A stretch of 45,558 bases of DNA, taken from Rhodospirillales bacterium (lineage in GTDB: Bacteria > Pseudomonadota > Alphaproteobacteria > BOG-932 > Roseiterribacteraceae). Where the stretch lies: assembly GCA_028291345.1 (NCBI GenBank), contig JAQGIF010000313.1, positions 1 through 45,558 of the forward strand. Reading direction: 5' to 3'. Numbering within the stretch: the first letter of the stretch is position 1; each line of letters opens with the position of its first letter. Shown here in pieces: positions 1,355 to 43,700 of this stretch. The position numbers were made by a program, and so were the translations under genes. Under the pieces are notes generated by a model. That model ran no database searches, was not told the origin of the DNA, and saw nothing but the letters and a program-made list of their open reading frames with translations.

Positions 1355-2713
1355 TCAGAAACGATATGTAAATCCGACTGTCAGAATATCTAGCGAGACG
1401 GTGCTCGTCGCCTTGATCGTGCTGCTGGTCGGGATCGGGAACGGCGCGGTCGAATAGAATGGCCGGTTGATATTGATGTTGCTGTCATCGACGAAGATAT
1501 GGGCATAGCTGCCGTCGAGGCCGAGATTTTCGCTGATCTGGTAATGCAATCCGCCGGCCAGCCAATAGCGATCGCCGTCGGGCACGCGGGTATCGCGAAA
1601 AGCGTCGATGGTCGGGGTCTGATCGAATTTGACGCCCGCGCGCAGCTTGACCTGATCGGTCAGCTGATATTCGCCGCCGAGCGCGACCGAAAACGTGTCC
1701 TTGTAGTTCTCAGGCGTTATCAGATCGCCGCTATTGTCGAATAGATGAACGGCGATCTGCTTGAAATTGCTCCAGCTGTAATAATCGACCTCGCCCAGCA
1801 GAGTCAGTTCAGGCGAGATCTTCTGGGCGATACCGACGGACACGATATCCGGCAGGTCGAGTTGGGCAGATGCGCCGACATTGCCGTTGCGCGCCGCGAG
1901 CGGACCGGTCAGGCCGGAGAACGTGACCGAGCCCTTGTCGATATTATGCGTAATGCCATAGCGATAGGAGAAACCGATCTTGGTGTCCGGCGTCGGCTTC
2001 AGCAGGATGCCCATATTGAAGCCCGTGCTCCAGGTATGGCCCGTGAGGGTCAGGCGGCCGTCGGTCGAGGGCACCGGCCCGCCGATCGTCAGCGGATTCG
2101 GCAGGGCTTGGCGCAGTTTTATATAGGTATATTGTTCGTCCAGCCCGGCGCCGATCGACAGCCACTCGTTGATCTTCCAGGCCACCGTCGGCGCGATATC
2201 GACCGTTTCGATGAAGCTGTCGATCGAATCGTAGCGCGCAAAGCTGTCCTGAGCATACTTCGACGCGAAGCCGAAGGGCGAGCTGACGCCGAGCCCGAAG
2301 GTGAGCGGCGAATCCGGCATTTGATAGCTGACATAGAAATCGGGAACCGGAGAAGCAGAGCCGGGATTGCCGCCATTACCGCCCGAAGCGGGTACGAAGC
2401 CGCCCGAAGAGGGGTGTGCGAGGAAGGCCCCGGTGGAACGGTTGACGGAGCCGTTATTGGTCAGCCCGGAGTCCGGAACGATCAGGTCGATGCCGCCCGC
2501 CGCCTGAATGCCTTCGAGTTCGCTCAAACCGGCGGGATTGAAATAGATCGTGCTGGCATCGTCGGCCGCGACGACATTGCCGGCCTGGGCCCGGCCGACG
2601 CCGGCGGCCGACTGTTCCTGAATATAGAAGCTGCCGCCCGAAGCGGCGCCGGAGAGCGACATAGCTGACATGGCCAGGATGGCGCCGTAACTGCGATTTG
2701 ATCGCAAAGTCAT
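1355..2713 (-). CDS. OmpP1/FadL family outer-membrane transporter
   Basis: The 452-residue product begins with a signal peptide (about residues 1-26, ending near SGAASG) followed by GSFYIQEQSAAGVGRAQAG, the N-terminal hatch motif typical of FadL/TodX/OmpP1 proteins. The tract DDASTIYFNPAGLSEL is the family signature, and the chain ends in F-T-Y-R-F, an aromatic C-terminus expected for outer-membrane barrels. These proteins let hydrophobic substrates such as long-chain fatty acids or aromatic hydrocarbons cross the outer membrane. The ATG at 2713 was chosen because AGGGAG lies 9 nt upstream; the ATG at 2722 directly abuts that element. The gene stands alone, divergent from rubrerythrin, so its substrate is unknown. 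Confidence 0.9.
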   Translation of the reverse strand: MTLRSNRSYGAILAMSAMSLSGAASGGSFYIQEQSAAGVGRAQAGNVVAADDASTIYFNPAGLSELEGIQAAGGIDLIVPDSGLTNNGSVNRSTGAFLAHPSSGGFVPASGGNGGNPGSASPVPDFYVSYQMPDSPLTFGLGVSSPFGFASKYAQDSFARYDSIDSFIETVDIAPTVAWKINEWLSIGAGLDEQYTYIKLRQALPNPLTIGGPVPSTDGRLTLTGHTWSTGFNMGILLKPTPDTKIGFSYRYGITHNIDKGSVTFSGLTGPLAARNGNVGASAQLDLPDIVSVGIAQKISPELTLLGEVDYYSWSNFKQIAVHLFDNSGDLITPENYKDTFSVALGGEYQLTDQVKLRAGVKFDQTPTIDAFRDTRVPDGDRYWLAGGLHYQISENLGLDGSYAHIFVDDSNININRPFYSTAPFPIPTSSTIKATSTVSLDILTVGFTYRF

Positions 2714-2999
2714 TGTTATCATCTCCCTACCGAAATTTAGGTACCCACGTAGCACAACCGATTCAGCTATAAAAGTATGCGTGTTATTGCGCCGTTATCT
2801 CGCCTCAAAATTCATAATATCCGAGCAATCTGGACTCCTGTATCCAAATTTACGGTTTGTAGAATTGACCCGCCGATGTTCCGCAAATATTAATTTATAT
2901 TCATTTTAGAAAATTACCGCGGCAACGAACCTTGATTTGCGCTGCGATGCAGCGAGACGTCACAAAGAAAACGGATAACGCCATCCTGCGCAGCACAAT

Positions 3000-3110: not shown

Positions 3111-3533
3111 ATGACCGCCCTGAAAGATTCGCAGACACTCGAAAACTTGAAAGCGGCGTTTGCAGGCGAGAGCCAGGCCAACCGTCGTTACCTCTATTTC
3201 GCACAAAAGGCCGATGTCGAAGGCTATAACGACGTCGCGGCGGTGTTCCGTTCGACCGCCGAAGGCGAGACCGGCCATGCGCATGGCCATCTGGAATTCA
3301 TGGAAGAGGTCGGCGATCCGGCCACCGGCAAGCCGATCGGCTCGACGGACAAGAACCTGGTGGCCTCGGTCGCCGGCGAAACCCATGAATATACCGACAT
3401 GTATCCGGGTATGGCCCGCACCGCCCGCGAAGAAGGCTTCGACGAGATCGCGGACTGGTTCGAAACGCTGGCCAAGGCCGAGCGCTCGCACGCTGGCCGG
3501 TTCCAGAAGGCGCTCGACAACCTGAACGCATAG
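3111..3533 (+). CDS. Rubrerythrin-type ferritin-like diiron protein
   Basis: The 140-residue product has a four-helix ferritin-like domain with ligand pattern E20, E53-x2-H56, E90 and E124-x2-H127, as in rubrerythrins. It has no C-terminal rubredoxin CxxC domain, so it is of the short class. Such proteins reduce peroxide or handle iron in the cytoplasm. A strong AAGGAGG lies 5 nt before the ATG. The gene begins a plus-strand unit with an Fe-S oxidoreductase and DUF3501. A hairpin terminator after it suggests that rubrerythrin is made in excess over the downstream genes. The Irr-like box upstream suggests iron-responsive expression. Confidence 0.92.
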
Positions 3534-3553: not shown

Positions 3554-3586
3554 AGCCGGCGGCCCTTGGGTCGCCGGCTTCTTTGT
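3554..3586 (+). terminator. Hairpin terminator or attenuator after rubrerythrin
   Basis: An 8-bp perfect stem AGCCGGCG/CGCCGGCT (3554-3561 with 3572-3579) is followed by the T-rich TTCTTTGT. It lies between rubrerythrin and the Fe-S oxidoreductase, so partial termination would lower expression of the downstream pair. Confidence 0.6.
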
Positions 3587-3606
3587 ATGACCCGAAGGGC
3601 CTTGAT

Positions 3607-4953
3607 ATGGCTGAGCCGAATAGCGGCGCACCGTTCCGCCACGTCATCGAGTGGCAAAATGCCGATTTCTACGACCTCGAAAAGATTGAGGCCGAGATGG
3701 AGCGGGTATTCGACATCTGTCACGGCTGTCGGCGGTGTTTTAATCTTTGCGAATCCTTTCCGACCCTGTTCGACATGATCGACGCCACTGCGACCGGTGA
3801 ATTCGATGAGGTGCCCAAGGCGCGGTATAAAGAGGTCGTGGACGACTGCACGCTCTGCGACATGTGCTTCATGACGAAGTGCCCCTATGTTCCGCCGCAC
3901 GAATTCAATCTTGATTTCCCGCATCTGATGCTGCGCTATCGCGCCGCCGAATTCGCCAAGGGCATCCCGTCCTTCGCGGATAAGGAACTGGTCGCGACGG
4001 ACCGCAACGGCAAGCTAGGATCGGCTCTTAATCCCCTCACGAACTGGGCCGTCAACCGCGATAACAGGCTAACTCGGCCTTTGATGGAAATGGTCGGCGA
4101 CATCGACCGCAATGCCGAACTCCCGACATTCGACCGCCCCACCTTCGTCGCTAGGGCCAAGAGCAACGCGCCGCAGCGTGACGCAAGCGCCCCGGCCGCA
4201 GGCCGCAAAGCCCTGCTCTATGCAACCTGTTTCATCAATTACAACAACACCTCGATCGGCCGCGCCGCCCAGGCCGTGCTGGCCAAGAACGGTGTCGAGA
4301 CCAAGGTGGTCCATCCCGAATGCTGCGGCATGCCGCAGCTCGAGCTTGGCGACATCAAGGACGTGGCAAGGCGCGCCGCCCGGGTTGCAGCCTTCATGCG
4401 GCCGCAGATCGAACAGGGCTATCGTGTCGTCGCCCTCGTCCCGTCCTGCGCCCTGATGCTGAAATTCGAATGGCCGCTGATCCTGCCGGACAATGAAGAC
4501 GTCGCCTTCCTGGCCAAGAACACGTCGGACCTCAGCGAATATGTTGTCGACATCGCGAAGAAAGAGGGGTTGGCGCCTGGTCTGAAGCCGCTGGAAGGCG
4601 GCGTGACCCTGCACCTTGCCTGCCATGCCCGCGCCCAGAACATGGGTCAGAAGGGCACGGAAATGCTGCGGCTGATCCCGGAACCTGACATCGCGGTAGT
4701 TGAGCGCTGCTCGGGCCATGGCGGATCGTGGGGCGTAAAAAAGGGCAATTTCGAAAAAGCGATGAAGGTCGGCAAGCCGGTCGCACGGGCGACGGCCAAG
4801 AACGACAAGGCCTTTGTTGCATCGGAATGCCCGCTCGCCGGGATGCACATTTTGCAGGGTGTGGAGGCTATTGAAGGCGCGAAGGCCCCGACCAAGGTAC
4901 ATCCGATCGAATTGCTGGCAAAAGCCTACGGCCTGACGGACATAACCTCATGA
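3607..4953 (+). CDS. Fe-S oxidoreductase with two 4Fe-4S and CCG-type domains (GlpC/HdrD-like)
   Basis: The 448-residue product opens with two ferredoxin cluster motifs, C38-x2-C41-x2-C44-x3-C48 and C81-x2-C84-x2-C87-x4-C92. Two cysteine-rich CCG-type regions follow: YATCF with HPECCGMP, and LACH with [10 protein letters not shown]. The second is degenerate, with CSG in place of CCG. The architecture resembles GlpC and heterodisulfide-reductase D-like electron-transfer subunits. It could pass electrons to rubrerythrin, although the physiological partner is an inference. The ATG at 3607 follows AAGGG; a TTG at 3583 is less likely. Its stop overlaps the next start by ATGA. Confidence 0.88.
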
Positions 4954-5546
4954 CAACCTCACCACGCCAGATCACCCGCGCCGACATCATGCCCATGGCG
5001 GACTATGCCGCTATTCGCCGCGATCAGCGCGCGCGGATTTCGGAGAAGAAGCGGTCCCGCCGGATCGAGGTGGGCCCCTACTCGACGTTCTATTTCGAGA
5101 ATTACGACACGATGTGGCATCAGATCCATGAGATGCTGTTCGTGGAAAAAGGTGGCGAGGCCCAGATCCAGGACGAGCTGGATGCCTATAATCCGCTGAT
5201 CCCGAACGGCAGCGAGCTCATCGCCACCGTGATGTTCGAAATACCGGAGGCGGGCCGCCGCACCGCCGTTCTTCATATGATCGGCGGCATCGAAAATCAT
5301 ATGCTGCTGTCGATCGGCGGCGAGACTATTCGGGGTGAACCCGACACCGACCGCGAGAATACCAGCGAGGAAGGTAAGGCCTCATCGGTTCAATTCGTTC
5401 GCTTTTCGCTGACCGAGGCGCAGAAGGCAGCCTTCAAATCGCGGGGTACGCCGGTCATGCTCGGCTTCGATCATCCGCGCTATGGCCATCTGGCGATGAT
5501 GCCGGCTGCCACTCGTGAGACTTTGGCGCAAGACCTGGACGGCTGA
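4950..5546 (+). CDS. DUF3501 family protein
   Basis: The 198-residue soluble protein starts with ITRADIMPMADYAAIR and contains VGPYSTFYFENYDTMWHQI, both typical of DUF3501. It overlaps the Fe-S oxidoreductase by 4 nt (ATGA), so the two are probably translationally coupled. The same trio of rubrerythrin, Fe-S oxidoreductase and DUF3501 recurs in proteobacteria, from memory, and suggests a shared peroxide or redox task. The biochemical role of DUF3501 is unknown, and no catalytic motif is evident. Confidence 0.85.
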   Translation: MTTSPRQITRADIMPMADYAAIRRDQRARISEKKRSRRIEVGPYSTFYFENYDTMWHQIHEMLFVEKGGEAQIQDELDAYNPLIPNGSELIATVMFEIPEAGRRTAVLHMIGGIENHMLLSIGGETIRGEPDTDRENTSEEGKASSVQFVRFSLTEAQKAAFKSRGTPVMLGFDHPRYGHLAMMPAATRETLAQDLDG

Positions 5547-5618
5547 AATTGGCTATTTAGGTGAAAAACTCACCTGCGCCAAATTGTCCTTGCAAGCCAT
5601 CGGCGTTTCGAGTATCAC

Positions 5619-5648
5619 AAAAAAAACGGGCCGCACGTATGCGGCCCG
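5619..5648 (-). terminator. Rho-independent terminator of the sRNA
   Basis: On the minus strand an 8-bp G+C-rich stem (5627-5634 with 5641-5648), with a 6-nt loop, is followed by eight T (5626-5619). It forms the 3' end of the sRNA. Confidence 0.85.
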
Positions 5649-5710
5649 AGTTTAGGGAGGAAACGCCGCATAAAGCAGGCGTCGGATATGGCGGGGAAGA
5701 TGCCATATCG
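5619..5710 (-). ncRNA. alpha-r8 / suhB-family (MmgR-like) small RNA
   Basis: Read on the minus strand this is a compact sRNA of about 90 nt. Hairpin 1 has 8-bp arms GATATGGC/GCCATATC. Hairpin 2 is GACGCC/GGCGTT with an inner GC/GC extension. A single-stranded UUUCCUCCCU follows, then a terminator stem CGGGCCGC/GCGGCCCG ending in eight U. The anti-Shine-Dalgarno decamer between hairpin 2 and the terminator is the hallmark I recall for the alpha-r8 (suhB, MmgR) family of Hfq-dependent sRNAs, linked in rhizobia to carbon-storage control. A consensus promoter lies at the right distance. No protein is likely here. Confidence 0.85.
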
Positions 5711-5716
5711 ATTCTC

Positions 5717-5745
5717 AATATATTGCAACTGCGAAAGAACGTCAA
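5717..5745 (-). promoter_or_regulatory. sigma70-type promoter of the sRNA
   Basis: On the minus strand TTGACG (5745-5740) and TATATT (5722-5717) are separated by exactly 17 bp, close to the housekeeping consensus. The predicted start, near 5709-5712, coincides with the first base of hairpin 1. Confidence 0.8.
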
Positions 5746-5764
5746 GCGGAAAACCGCTTTTTTT
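5744..5764 (+). terminator. Terminator facing right, overlapping the sRNA promoter
   Basis: The plus strand shows the 6-bp stem AAGCGG/CCGCTT with an AAAA loop, followed by a T run through 5764. It could end transcripts from the rubrerythrin-DUF3501 unit. Its left arm overlaps the -35 box of the sRNA. Confidence 0.65.
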
Positions 5765-5902
5765 ATGTGCGTCGCGGTAAGCCATTCTTTCAATTAATGA
5801 ATTTTATTCTGCAGTGCACACGGATTTCGCGGCGGGACATGCTCTTTCGTCTGCGCGCCCTGTCCGTCATGCTCGATTCGCCCGTAACCGGAACCACTAG
5901 CG

Positions 5903-6289
5903 ATGGCCATCAACGACAAACCGCCTCGGAGTGAAGGGCCGCCTCAGAGTGAACGGCCGATCGAACCTTGGTTCTTCGATCTTGAGGCGCCATGCCAGCT
6001 CAATGACGAAGATCAGGAACGCATCAATGTCCTGAACGCCGCCGGCCGCGCGATCGTCACGCGCATGGTCGAGCATATCGCCATCGACGAAGACGTCCCC
6101 GCCGAGGCCTTGACGCCCGGATTCGCCGACATGGCGATCGACCGTGCCCGCGACGCGATCCACGCCGCGCGCAATGCCGGCCCGAAAGCGCGCCCGAAAA
6201 CCGATCTGGAAGAACTGGCCTTCCGCTATATGGATGCCATGCGTCTATGGCTGCGGATTTATCGCGCCGCGCGCGATGCGGCAGGCTGA
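5903..6289 (+). CDS. Conserved-looking hypothetical protein, 128 aa
   Basis: I do not recognise this family. The product is a soluble, charged protein. It has a proline-rich N-terminus (about residues 1-22), the segment EPWFFDLEAPCQLNDEDQER, and a mainly helical remainder rich in Ala, Arg and Asp/Glu. It has no signal peptide, membrane segment or cofactor motif. It begins at an ATG after a 350-bp intergenic region containing the sRNA, and a weak hairpin with a T run follows at 6485-6509. Codon use resembles that of its neighbours, so it is probably a real gene. Confidence 0.6.
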   Translation: MAINDKPPRSEGPPQSERPIEPWFFDLEAPCQLNDEDQERINVLNAAGRAIVTRMVEHIAIDEDVPAEALTPGFADMAIDRARDAIHAARNAGPKARPKTDLEELAFRYMDAMRLWLRIYRAARDAAG

Positions 6290-6317
6290 GACGCTGCGAC
6301 GCGAGGGTTGAAAGAAG

Positions 6318-6416
6318 CTACTCTTTTCCGGGAGCGACCTTGGTCGGAATCGCATCATTGATGGACGAACCTCCAGATTTCAGGCGCACCAGGTTTCCAG
6401 GTGTAAGATCCGCCAT
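6318..6416 (-). CDS. 32-aa YodC/DUF2158-like mini-protein
   Basis: A short minus-strand ORF encodes 32 residues that begin MADLTPGNLVRLKSGGSS and end KVAPGKE. The first half matches the N-terminus of YodC/DUF2158 proteins (polar-GDxVxLKSGGP pattern). The usual second half with its Cys-Trp segment is missing. A good GGGAGG lies 7 nt before the ATG, which argues that it is translated. It may be a genuine mini-gene or the remnant of a longer DUF2158 gene. Its role is unknown. Confidence 0.5.
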   Translation of the reverse strand: MADLTPGNLVRLKSGGSSINDAIPTKVAPGKE

Positions 6417-28516: not shown

Positions 28517-30802
28517 TTAGTATTTGACTTTAATGTCGAAGCCGAACGTGCGCGGCACACCATATTGTTTGGTGGCGAAGCCGAGCGACGGCCCGAAGTC
28601 GATACTCTGCACGATATAGTGCTCATCCAGCAGGTTCTCGCCGAAGACACTGGTTTCCAGGTTTGCTTTCCCACCCCAGATCGGGACATCGGCGAGCGTC
28701 AGGCGGGCACTGACAAGGTTCTGGGAAGGCGCCTTCGTCAGATCGGTGAAGGGATTTTGCGTCGGCAGGTTGATTATGCCGAAATACTTGGCACTTTGAT
28801 AAGAATAGTCCGCGCGCAATATCAGCGTGCCGAAATCCCATTCCGGAAATTCGTACTGAACGCCCAGATGGTCCGTCCAGTTCGGCACGAAACTGAAATG
28901 CGCCGAGCTTGCATAATTGCGTAACTGCCCGGTGACCGGATCGGGGAAATAGATCTTCTGATATTCGGGATGGACGTACCCGATGCTACCGTCGATGGTC
29001 ACGCTCTTGATCGGTCGGACCTGCGCCTCAAGCTCGAACCCGGTATAATCCGCGGCGGCGTTCAATATTCCGCCGGAATTGCCTCCGGACAACGTGTAGC
29101 CGGTATATTGAGAAACCTGCAGGTCTTCGTAATTCGTGTGGAATGCCGCCAAGTTGACGCGCAGGCGATGGTCCAGCCATTCGGACTTGACGCCGGCCTC
29201 GTAAACCTTGGCTTTCTCCGGTGCGAAATTCGGCGAAATGCCTGGCGTTGCCCGCAGGTTAAAGCCGCCCGAGCGATATCCGGTGGACAGCCGGGCATAG
29301 GTCATCAGGTCGGGTGTCCACTGGTAATTCAGCGTCACATTGTAGGACAGGTTATAGAACTTATCCGTTCCTGAAATATTCGTGGAACCGGACTCGACCG
29401 CCGACTTACTGTCATGCGTGTAGCGAAGACCGGTCGTAATCTCCAATTTGTCGTCCAGCACGGGCGGGCGGTAGCTCGTCTGGCCGAAGGCGGCTTCCGA
29501 GGTGGTCGACTGGGTCGCGACGAGCGGAGCGGTCACGTTGAAGCCTAGCGTAGGCGACAGGACGAAGGTCAGCTTCGACTGCTCGTTTTCGGCCGCCCGG
29601 TCATGGAAATAGTAAAGACCAACGACGTAGTTCCAGCGGTCGGTTTTCCCCAGAACCTGCAACTCTTCCGACGCCTGGTTAAGACGCTGGCCGGTTGGGC
29701 CCTCGTAAGGGGTCACCGGCCCGATGCCGGTAACGGTCGGGCCGATCAGATTGGGCGGCGCATAGGCGACATAGGAGCTCGACCAGAATTGCCGGTAGCC
29801 GGTGATCGACTTCACCGAGATCTCGGAATTGATATCGTATTGCAGCGTCAGTGCGTGACCGAGAACGCCGACACGGGCGTCGGGAATGGACTGCAGAGAG
29901 GCCCGGTCGGTATAGTTTGGGTTGACCGACAGGACGCTGCCCCCCAGAGCCGGCGACTGGCCGAAATAGGCGGCGACCGCAGGCAACGTGTATGAAATCT
30001 GCCCATAGGGCGATTGCCCGGTCAACCGGTCGAAGTCGAAGCTGTAATCGGCGCTGAACGCACCCCAGTCGCCATGCAGCTTGAACCATGCCGAGTCCGA
30101 CCTCAGCGCACCCGGGTCGTGATCGCTCGATGTGTTGATATTGTCGACATAGCCGTCGCGCTGCCGGTGCTGATAGGCCAGGATCGCCTTCAGGCCGGTG
30201 TCGCCGATGGCGCCGGTATTGATTTCGGTGCGGGCGGCCAGCTCGTCATAGCTGCCATAGATGAATTTCTCCTCGATACCGAAATCGTCGCTGGGCGTCT
30301 TGGTAACGATGTTGATCGCACCGCCAGTGGTATTGCGGCCGAACAAGGTGCCTTGCGGGCCTCGCAGGACCTCGACCCGCTGCACATCGACAAGGTCGAA
30401 GTTGGTGGAGGTGACGCCAGCGATGTACACGCCATCCAGATACTGCCCGACCGGCGGATCCTCGGTGATCAGGATTTCATGGTCGCCGATGCCGCGAATA
30501 TCTGTGGCGCTGCCCCCGATGAAGCCCGGCGTGGCGACGCTGGCGACGTTGGGAATGAATTGGCCGATCTTGTCGACACCATGAATATCGAGCCGATCGA
30601 GCGTCGCGCCGCTGATGGCCGAGACTGAGACCGGTGTTGTCTGAAGCACCTCTTCCCGGCGGCGCGCGGTCACAATTACTTCCTCAAGGCCCTCCCCGGC
30701 AGATACCGCTGTCTGGTTCGATTGGGCCTTCGCAGGCGAAATGTCGATTAACGCAATAATAGCTGTCGTGGCGCACAGCACCTTACTTAGATGTCCTGAC
30801 AT
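28517..30802 (-). CDS. TonB-dependent outer-membrane receptor
   Basis: The 761-residue protein has a signal peptide, a TonB-box-like EEVIVTARRREEVLQTTPVS after it, the plug segment LDIRGIG-type VDKIGQFIPNVA, and RGPQGTLFGRNTTGGAINIVT, typical of sphingomonad receptors. A 22-strand barrel follows and the chain ends in an aromatic-rich GFDIKVKY. It should import a scarce or large ligand across the outer membrane using TonB energy. It is the first gene of the nitrile hydratase operon and is preceded by GGGAG 4 nt from the ATG. The ligand is unknown. Confidence 0.95.
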   Translation of the reverse strand: MSGHLSKVLCATTAIIALIDISPAKAQSNQTAVSAGEGLEEVIVTARRREEVLQTTPVSVSAISGATLDRLDIHGVDKIGQFIPNVASVATPGFIGGSATDIRGIGDHEILITEDPPVGQYLDGVYIAGVTSTNFDLVDVQRVEVLRGPQGTLFGRNTTGGAINIVTKTPSDDFGIEEKFIYGSYDELAARTEINTGAIGDTGLKAILAYQHRQRDGYVDNINTSSDHDPGALRSDSAWFKLHGDWGAFSADYSFDFDRLTGQSPYGQISYTLPAVAAYFGQSPALGGSVLSVNPNYTDRASLQSIPDARVGVLGHALTLQYDINSEISVKSITGYRQFWSSSYVAYAPPNLIGPTVTGIGPVTPYEGPTGQRLNQASEELQVLGKTDRWNYVVGLYYFHDRAAENEQSKLTFVLSPTLGFNVTAPLVATQSTTSEAAFGQTSYRPPVLDDKLEITTGLRYTHDSKSAVESGSTNISGTDKFYNLSYNVTLNYQWTPDLMTYARLSTGYRSGGFNLRATPGISPNFAPEKAKVYEAGVKSEWLDHRLRVNLAAFHTNYEDLQVSQYTGYTLSGGNSGGILNAAADYTGFELEAQVRPIKSVTIDGSIGYVHPEYQKIYFPDPVTGQLRNYASSAHFSFVPNWTDHLGVQYEFPEWDFGTLILRADYSYQSAKYFGIINLPTQNPFTDLTKAPSQNLVSARLTLADVPIWGGKANLETSVFGENLLDEHYIVQSIDFGPSLGFATKQYGVPRTFGFDIKVKY

Positions 30803-33841: not shown

Positions 33842-33937
33842 TGGCGGAAGAGAGTGGGAGTCGAACCCACCCGGGACAGGCTCGCTGCCCCACCCGGATT
33901 TGAAGTCCGGACGTCCCACCGGAGACGATTCCCTTCC
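33842..33937 (-). tRNA. selC: tRNA-Sec (anticodon UCA)
   Basis: The minus strand folds into a selenocysteine tRNA of 96 nt including an encoded CCA. It has an 8-bp acceptor stem (GGAAGGGA with TCTCTTCC), longer than canonical, and a G discriminator. The anticodon loop is CTTCAAA with anticodon TCA at 33903-33901 on a CCGGA/TCCGG stem. The large variable arm has a 7-bp stem (GGGGCAG/CTGTCCC), and the T arm is GTGGG-TTCGACT-CCCAC. These features separate it from tRNA-Ser. The 5' end is 1 nt from the selB stop codon, so it is probably cut from a selB transcript. Confidence 0.97.
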
Positions 33938-40702: not shown

Positions 40703-43700
40703 ACCTCCGCCGGGCCAGAGGTCGGTTCGATATTCACCAGGAATGCCTTATATTCCGGCGTATCGATATTGGCGTCGCCGACAAATGGCGTCAGCGAATT
40801 CGGACCGAAGCCTTTCTTTGCCTCACCCATAAAGCCCCAATGCAGCGGAATACCGATGATATGGACGGTCTTGCCATTGCAGATCAACGGCCTGATCCGT
40901 TTGGTCACGACCGCCTTGGCCCTGATCGAACCGCGCTTTGACCAAACCCGGACCCAGCCGCCCAGGGGGATGTTTTTCTCCTTCGCAAGTTCTTCCGACA
41001 GCTCGACAAAGAATTCCGGCTGAAGGGCGGCATTCACGCGGTTGTGTTTGGTCCAAAAGTGGAAATGCTCGGTCAGGCGGTAGGACGTCGCCGCATAAGG
41101 AAACTCATCCGGCGTGCCGAACTGCGCCACGTCGTCCAGGAAGACCCGCACAACGGGATTGCCCCGGATTTCCGGATTGATAACATTCGCAACCGGCGAT
41201 TCGAACGGTTCGTAATGGACCGGGAATGGTCCATCCCGCAGCATTCCGCGTGCAAAGAGCCGCGCGGAACCTTCCGCGTTCATGATGAACGGACCGACCT
41301 CCTCGGGCTTCGCTGTCGGCGCGATATCGGGAACGTCGGAACCGATCCATTTCGCGCCATCCCATTCCAAAATCTTGCGGCTCGGATCCCAGGGCTTGCC
41401 CTGCAAGTCAGCCGAGGCGCGATTATAGAGCGTGCGCCGGTTGACCGGCCAGGACCAGGTCCAGTTGGGATAGGTGCCCAACCCGTCGGCGTCGGTATTG
41501 TCGCGCCGGGCCATGTTGTTGCCGGCCTCATTGAAGCATCCGGAATAGATCCAGCAGCCCGAACTCGTCGTGCCGTCGTCGCGCAGTTGCGAGAAGTTGG
41601 CCACCTGCTTGCCGGCCGGGACGACGATCTTTGTCGCATCGGTCGGATCATGCAGGTCGGTCAACGCCCGCCCGTTCATCTCGCGGGCGAGTTCGTCGGG
41701 CTTGGGCTCGTTCTCATCCTTGTAGTCCCAGGTGAGGTTGAGGATCGGATCGGGGAAGGCACCGCCTTCCTTGCGGTACAGTGCGCGCAGCCGCACAAAA
41801 ATCTGGCCCATGATCCAATTGTCGTGCTTGGCCTCGCCCGGGGGCGAGCCACCCGGCCAGTGCCATTGCAGCCACCGCCCGGAATTGGTCAGTGACCCTT
41901 CCTCTTCCGCGAAGCAGGTGGTGGGCAGTTGGATGACCTCGGTCTGGATCGACTTGGTGTCGACGTCGTTATATTCGCCGTGATTCTGCCAGAAGCGCGA
42001 TGTCTCGGTGTCCAACGGGTCCATCGTCACCAGCCATTTCAGGTTGGACAATGAGGCGGTGATCTTGGCGCGGTTGGGGAAGGCCAGGATCGGGTTGAAT
42101 CCCTGGCAGAAATAGCCGTTCACCTTCCCGTTAAACATCAGCTCGAAGGTCCGCAGCACGTCGTAGGCGGGGACGTCGAGCTTGGGAAGATAGTCATAGG
42201 CCCAGTCGTTCTCGGCCGTCGCCGCCGCACCGAACATCGCCTTTTGCAGGCTGACGAAGAACTTGGGGTAGTTCTGCCAATAGCTGGTCTGGCCCGGCCT
42301 GAGCGGCTTGAACTGGCGGGTGGACAGGTAAGTCTTGAGATTGGTCTCCTTTTCCACCGGCATATTGAGATAGCCGGGCATATACTGAGACAGCAGACCG
42401 ACATCGGTCAGGCCCTGGATATTGGAGTGACCGCGCAACGCGTTCATGCCGCCGCCGCGAATACCGATATTGCCCAGTATCAGCTGGAGCATCGCCATGG
42501 TGCGGATATTCTGCGAGCCACTGCTGTGCTGGGTCCAGCCCAACGCATACATCGACGTCATCGCCTTGTCGGGCGCGGATGATTCCCCGATCATCCGGGC
42601 CACCGTCAGGAATTTTTCCTTGGGCGTGCCGCAGATGCGCTCGACCATTTCAGGCGTGTAAATATCGACGTGCTGCTTCAGCAGGTTCCACACGCAGCGC
42701 GGATGCTGAAGCGTCATGTCGATCTGCGCGAAGCCGTCCGGACCAAGCTCATAGTCCCAGCTCGTGCGGTCATAATCGCGCTTTTCCGCGTCATACCCGG
42801 TGAACAGGCCATCGTGATAGGCGAAGGCGTCTTTCACGATCAACGCGGCGTTGGTGAAGTTCTTCGCGTACTCCCACTGCACCTTATTGTTTTCGATACA
42901 ATAGCGGATCACCCCCAGCAAAAAGGCGATGTCGGTGCCCTGGCGGATCGGCGCATAGAAATCCGATACCGAGGCTGTGCGCGTATAGCGCGGATCGACG
43001 ACGATCAGCTTCGCGCCACGGTTGGCCTTTGCCTCCGTGACCCATTTAAACCCGCAGGGATGCGCCTCGGCGGCATTGCCACCCATGACGATCACCAAAT
43101 CCGTATTCCTGATATCGGTCCAGGAATTCGTCATCGCGCCACGACCGAACGTAGGGCCCAAACTGGACACCGTAGGTCCGTGTCAAACGCGCGCCTGGTT
43201 GTCGAAAGCGAGGAGACCGACGCTGCGCGCGACTTTGTAGGTCGCGTAAGCAGTTTCATTGGTGGTTGCGGATGCGGCCAGGAACCCGACCGAGGTCCAG
43301 CGATTGACCGCGACGCCGTCCTTGTTCTTGGCGATGAAGTTCGCGTCCCGGTCGTCCTTCATCAGGCGTACGACGCGGTCCAGGGCTTCGTCCCACGAAA
43401 CGCGCTCGAACTTGTCCGATCCGGGCTTTCGCACCATCGGGTAGTTTAGCCGCGTCTTGGCATGGACGAAATCCTTCAGCGCCGCGCCTTTCGGGCAGAG
43501 CGTGCCGCGGTTGGTGGGATGATCGGCATCGCCTTCGATGTGGGTGATTTCCGCCGTCTGTCCCTTGCGCAGATCACCCTTGGAATAGAGGATGACCCCG
43601 CAGGCGACAGAGCAGTAGGGGCACGTGTTGCGCGTTTCCGTGGTCATCGCAAGCTTGTAGGCCCGGACATGGGCGACCTCCGCCGCCTCCGCCGCGCTGA

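Follow-up and report, generated by a model that had tools for sequence, protein, structure and literature searches.

An αR8-family small RNA in an uncultured Rhodospirillales lineage, probably under PHB-storage control and directed at TonB-receptor and phasin messages

An αR8 RNA gene and its copies

The window analyzed here is a stretch of 45,558 nucleotides from a Rhodospirillales bacterium (assembly GCA_028291345.1, contig JAQGIF010000313.1, forward strand). On its plus strand, an operon runs from a rubrerythrin gene (3111–3533, PF02915) through a gene for an Fe-S/CCG-domain protein (3583–4953, PF02754) to a gene for a DUF3501 protein (4950–5546, PF12007, 8.7e-61). Convergent with this operon, on the minus strand, lies an sRNA gene with a predicted transcript of 93 nt (5619–5711), the start being placed ≈6 nt after the −10 box and the end at the last base of a U8 run. 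The preliminary description of this DNA had called the locus an alpha-r8/suhB sRNA of the MmgR family and had proposed a covariance-model search with RF00519, which proved positive. In a window-wide Rfam search, this family (Rfam title suhB, 'Makes More Granules Regulator') matched 5613–5687 on the minus strand over the full model (1–77) with 43.5 bits and an E value of 8.5e-6, relative to the gathering score of 41 bits that we used as the cut-off for membership, and it was also the top family when all Rfam families were compared on a 241-nt stretch around the sRNA. The sRNA locus is a genuine αR8/MmgR/SisA family gene. By itself, it is a sound but ordinary addition to the family from an uncultured Rhodospirillales lineage. 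A RyhB assignment was rejected, its 19.9 bits falling short of the 55-bit cut-off.

The predicted RNA is more stable than expected by chance, with a minimum free energy of −41 kcal/mol compared with −22.0 ± 2.6 for 200 shuffled sequences, none of which was as stable (z = −7.24). Its three hairpins (5709–5685, 5683–5662, and 5648–5627 on the minus strand) are those that had been anticipated. The 5′ hairpin (5685–5709) is an 8-bp stem with a CU-rich loop, GAUAUGGC-AUCUUCCCC-GCCAUAUC, and recurs as GAUAUGGC-A(U/C)CUUCCCC-GCC(A/G)UAU(C/U) in all seven copies of the genus that we aligned (alignment A2, from which L146, G001:C218, was left out at 31.7 bits). Every cell of this helix is paired in the seven copies, and six of its eight pairs are invariant. 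Pair counts for covariation in the helices of these copies did not exceed those of shuffles; because the copies are too alike for covariation, the evidence for the 5′ hairpin is its conservation together with its folding energy. It was not seen in the sister genus g2, and its pattern had no match in viral contigs. The second hairpin, GACGCC...GGCGUU (5662–5683, minus strand), is supported by folding and by the alignment of the genus copies.

The conserved core UUUCCUCCCU (5654–5663, minus strand), an anti-Shine-Dalgarno seed, is the same as the core named in the available text of PMC12559287 and sits 3′ of a weak hairpin, as expected for the αR8 family. Eight of its 10 columns are invariant in our class-wide alignment of 27 αR8 loci (A1). 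The segment had been described as single stranded, which is largely so in the fold, except that its first two U residues pair weakly in hairpin 2. RNAalifold found no pairs on the MAFFT alignment of the 27 class-wide sequences, and our αR8 model R1 is therefore sequence-only. The RNA ends in an intrinsic terminator (5619–5648, minus strand), recovered by both the terminator scan and the fold, in which a 9-bp stem with eight G-C pairs (5648–5627) precedes the expected eight U residues (5626–5619).

The 5′ hairpin gives the genus sRNA a second CU-rich loop, AUCUUCCCC, a feature that recalls the AbcR (alpha-r15) RNAs, which are described as carrying two CU-rich anti-Shine-Dalgarno motifs and as having partial homology to RF00519 (PMC7143759, available text). 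We regard an AbcR-type RNA in place of αR8 as very improbable, however, since RF00519 is covered in full length and ranks best among the Rfam families, the predicted length of 93 nt falls short of the 114 to 120 nt of AbcR, and the core is identical to the αR8 10-mer. The AbcR assignment was rejected on the Rfam ranking, and the resemblance to AbcR1 and AbcR2 is confined to the CU-rich anti-Shine-Dalgarno segments and the partial RF00519 homology.

The source genome, G000, with 401 contigs totaling 5.6 Mb, was compared with two others of the same genus (G001 and G002) and two of sister genus g2 (G003 and G004). G000 contains a second αR8 copy (C315:8600–8671) that, at 55 bits, scores above the window copy; four RF00519 matches were found in G001 and two in G002. 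Of the six genus copies other than that of the window, five exceed the cut-off and one (L144) reaches 40.9 against 41. In wider searches, RF00519 matched 32 of the 59 genomes of a relatives set (above the cut-off in 29) and 171 of the 289 genomes of a class set (above it in 135), with no match in the plasmid collection searched. Of the two controls, Caulobacter matched as expected and Thermus composti also matched, one of the two above the cut-off. Tandem αR8 triplets within ≈600 bp occur in three genomes, all in family f33 (G036, C7:54432–55030; G151, C4:3801090–3801687; and G231, C1:743793–744391).

Given that the window copy, just above the cut-off, scores below its C315 paralog, it might be decaying while the C315 copy does the work. 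The conservation of the locus speaks strongly against this, and we consider it most unlikely. From its terminator to its −35 box, the locus hardly differs between G000 and G001 while the flanking intergenic DNA has diverged, and the 5′ hairpin, core, terminator, and promoter are all intact in G001. G002 likewise retains a copy with a near-identical promoter, TTGACG ... TATATC, which the promoter scan does not call because the last base differs. The lower score of the window copy is consistent with an insertion, shared with G001, in the hairpin 2 loop.

Gene neighborhood and convergent transcription

The locus had been characterized as lying beside an iron-linked operon instead of suhB. The gene order is as stated, but the usual αR8 neighbor is an FGase gene (PMC12559287, available text), as in the sister genus, where αR8 lies 202–219 bp from the FGase gene in convergent orientation in both G003 and G004. 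The adjacency is frequent and not obligatory, since sisB-D lack it. No αR8 was found on five FGase stretches from G000 and G001.

Could the sRNA serve the rubrerythrin/DUF3501 operon as an iron- or oxidative-stress regulator in a RyhB-like role? Its adjacency to the operon is shared by G000 and G001, which have the same arrangement of sRNA and rubrerythrin/Fe-S/DUF3501 genes. In G002, however, the αR8 copy lies between a FadL-type porin gene and a VOC-type gene (types judged by eye from ORF translations, FadL by likeness to window 1355–2755, PF03349) with no DUF3501 operon beside it, and DUF3501 had no match in this genome, which is only 65% complete. Only one of 68 named DUF3501 loci has αR8 adjacent, and that one is a MAG of the same genus; one more has αR8 ≈4.6 kb away by the sequence-only model. 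Because the G002 copy lacks the operon and so few DUF3501 loci adjoin αR8, the iron link is not functional evidence. An iron-operon function as the main role was rejected on these grounds, and with RyhB scoring below its cut-off as well, we give this explanation very little credence. Judged from the gene orders compared, the adjacency appears clearly to be a local accident confined to the genus.

Within the genus, a FadL-type porin gene accompanies the αR8 copy in all three species (window 1355–2755, minus strand; L036 2228–3553, minus strand), and the DUF3501 operon lies between the two in two of the three. A 22-nt block, CCTGCGCCAAATTGTCCTTGCA (5574–5595), between the DUF3501 stop codon and the sRNA terminator is identical in G001 amid diverged intergenic surroundings and was not found elsewhere among the fetched loci.

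The sRNA promoter does overlap a terminator for the opposite strand, as the preliminary description held: the plus-strand terminator of the convergent operon (5744–5759, T-run to ≈5766), called by the terminator scan, shares two bases with the −35 box. The same description had the two transcripts meeting in 40 bp, which understates the predicted overlap. The scan found no plus-strand terminator-like site between the DUF3501 stop codon (5546) and 5744, and the operon transcript would therefore traverse the entire sRNA in antisense and end only within the sRNA promoter. The plus-strand hairpin is kept in G001 with the same stem and a changed loop (AAGCGG-GCGAA-CCGCTT) and is absent at the G002 αR8 promoter. 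With the terminator lying in the promoter where the operon exists, a complete complement of the sRNA is to be expected in the operon 3′ UTR.

This arrangement raises an alternative in which the main role is exerted in cis: operon read-through would produce an antisense RNA, duplex formation and collision would silence both partners, and the sRNA would be sponged by the 3′ UTR of the operon. The long terminator-free stretch and the presence of the promoter-embedded terminator in the genome with the operon (G001) and not in the one without it there (G002) are both as this alternative predicts, and sponging of αR8 by a G/A-rich RNA is known, as CrfA sponges Caulobacter SisA (PMC12559287, available text). 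The arrangement is nevertheless found in only two of three species of the genus, the G002 sRNA persists with its promoter where the operon is missing, and the second G000 copy at C315 has no DUF3501-type partner in the listed ORFs. On balance, we think it unlikely that the principal function lies in cis.

The promoter and PhaR-type boxes

The sRNA is preceded by the sigma-70-type promoter TTGACG-N17-TATATT (5717–5745, minus strand) exactly as it had been proposed, with TTGACG at 5745–5740, a 17-nt spacer, and TATATT at 5722–5717. Both hexamers are the same in G001, and in a scan of 5000–6400 this promoter was the sole match (shuffle mean 0.5). A pattern search places a dyad, TTCGCAGTTGCAATA (5721–5735, minus strand), between the −35 and −10 boxes; it is a YGC-N4-GCR variant of the PhaR/AniA box. 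In Sinorhizobium meliloti, the mmgR promoter is reported to contain a box of the form WNWD2NYGCRNYGCRNH2WNW to which PhaR (AniA) binds (PMC12542648, available text), and a review, in its available text, describes mmgR regulation as dependent on a conserved dyad located between −35 and −10 (PMC8401924). In a Bradyrhizobium study, the consensus reads TGCRNYGCASMA (PMC6201568, available text). Tested for the PhaR/AniA box, the window αR8 has YGCRNYGCR at 5768 and 5810 upstream and the N4 variant in its core promoter. The upstream boxes of canonical spacing are TGCGTCGCG (5768–5776), conserved with base changes in G001, and TGCAGTGCA (5810–5818), which reads TGCACCGCA in G001 and, by position, CGCGCCGCA in G002. 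Some 85 bp after the second box starts a plus-strand ORF of 128 aa (5903–6289) that is conserved in G001 and has no Pfam or NCBIfam match; this ORF could itself be storage-regulated.

The canonical box is widespread upstream of αR8 genes in the class. With one representative per family among the matches listed in the relatives and class searches, 48 of the 65 families carry YGCRNYGCR within 120 nt upstream of αR8, compared with 11.3% of 710 flank windows (p ≈8e-32) and with a mean of 6 and a maximum of 12 in dinucleotide shuffles of the upstream regions. In this count, L031 was left out as below the cut-off, L307 was kept though it lacks the usual core, and family f1 is represented by the window copy, whose N3 count rests on the upstream box at 5768. 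Measured from the model start, the proximal boxes have a median center of −31, and 40 of the 48 fall within −70 to −10. The spacings N2, N5, and N6 are not enriched in the 65 families, and neither, class-wide, is N4 (nine of 65), the spacing that the window's own family uses in the dyad between −35 and −10. The presence of the box in 48 families suggests an old and general storage control of αR8 that is no peculiarity of Sinorhizobium. A class-wide αR8 box was not found in the literature searched, which did not cover Lagares 2016 or Ceizel Borella 2018.

The exact dyad pattern TTCGCANNTGCRAWA, with which six genomes were scanned for further PhaR genes, has four sites in G000, two of which are the αR8 promoters (the window copy and the second copy), and in G001 (two sites) and G002 (one site) it marks only αR8 promoters. 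Inspection by eye of the ORFs flanking the two extra sites in G000 and the three extra sites in G044 showed no recognizable PHB gene; one of the G044 sites lies inside an FGase-like ORF. PhaR genes are present in G000, G001, and G002, and a TGC-N3-GCA box precedes three of the four G000 phasin genes. PhaR control of the window sRNA is likely on this pattern evidence, with the N4 dyad falling short of proof: because N4 is not enriched across the class and the local phasin promoters use N3, a different repressor could bind the dyad.

The locus shares with MmgR of S. meliloti the RF00519 match, three stem-loops, the anti-Shine-Dalgarno core, a dyad between −35 and −10, and a phasin mRNA as a possible target. 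It differs from MmgR in its greater length (≈93 versus 77 nt), in the N4 spacing of its dyad where MmgR has N3, in its gene neighborhood, and in the presence of two copies in G000. The Caulobacter crescentus SisA-D RNAs likewise have the UUUCCUCCCU core, multiple siblings, and TonB-receptor starts as likely targets. Unlike sisA-D, whose promoters are reported as unrelated, the authors having found no common promoter motif (PMC12559287, available text), the two G000 copies share a promoter motif and the 5′ hairpin.

Candidate targets and proposed role

Complements of the core are enriched at the starts of TonB-receptor genes in G000. A core complement of at least 7 nt is present at 13 of 63 receptor starts and at four of 110 control ORFs (p = 5e-4), and one of at least 9 nt at five of 63 compared with none of 110; the receptor set comprises the 63 of 64 genes with a usable start, and the controls are mechanical ORFs. 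A generic Shine-Dalgarno 10-mer is not enriched at the receptor starts (2/63 versus 1/110). Pairing with the 16S tail is likewise better at the receptor starts, and the margin by which the sRNA exceeds 16S reaches only p = 0.057. Among the eight longest matches, the 5′ UTRs are not clearly alike beyond the ribosome-binding site (median 0.46). A count of 18/64 versus 4/127 was set aside because it had taken in gene-internal GAGGAAA codons belonging to the LEEIVVTAR motif.

Exact AGGGAGGAAA-N2-9-ATG sites number five each in G000 and G001 and none in G002, G003, or G004; the reversed pattern has no sites. TonB-dependent receptor genes begin at two of the five sites in G000 and at one of the five in G001, the latter judged by sequence, and in a third G000 receptor (C86) a single base separates the 10-mer from the ATG. 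The phasin at C16 and its G001 relative both carry GGAGGAAAC at the ribosome-binding site, which is absent from that of the other three G000 phasins. Caulobacter SisA is described as repressing TonB receptors by ribosome-binding-site pairing through the same core (PMC12559287, available text), and the enrichment at receptor starts suggests that this target class also applies in the present genome. An hfq gene is present in G000, G001, and G002.

Taken with the promoter evidence, we consider it probable that this αR8 RNA is a trans-acting anti-Shine-Dalgarno sRNA of the Hfq type, under PHB-storage control, that represses TonB receptors and a phasin; it most likely works like MmgR and SisA. For the window sRNA, we infer expression, Hfq binding, PhaR binding, and repression along the following lines. 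The sRNA would be transcribed from its own sigma-70-type promoter, where a PhaR/AniA-like repressor probably occupies the dyad between −35 and −10 together with the upstream boxes, and the level of the RNA would therefore increase as PHB stores titrate out PhaR. The open UUUCCUCCCU core, probably on Hfq, would then pair with AGGGAGGAAA-type ribosome-binding sites, so that the sRNA probably blocks the translation start of nutrient-receptor and storage-granule messages, with a set of TonB-dependent receptors and a single phasin as the best candidate targets.

A wider proposal, which we advance tentatively and with less than even confidence, is that PhaR-sensed PHB status controls αR8 across the Alphaproteobacteria and that αR8 in turn sets the TonB-receptor repertoire, forming an ancestral storage-to-uptake circuit to which the operon in this genus adds antisense titration. 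If true, the work on MmgR and PHB in Sinorhizobium and that on SisA and TonB receptors in Caulobacter would describe two halves of one circuit. The class-wide box and the receptor enrichment together make this circuit directly testable.

The source genome encodes 64 TonB-receptor plug domains in its 5.6 Mb, one of them in the window (30317–30646, minus strand). Elsewhere in the window, a tRNA-Sec gene (33846–33937, minus strand) and a bacterial SECIS element (SECIS_3; 43130–43188, minus strand) suggest a selenoprotein gene nearby.
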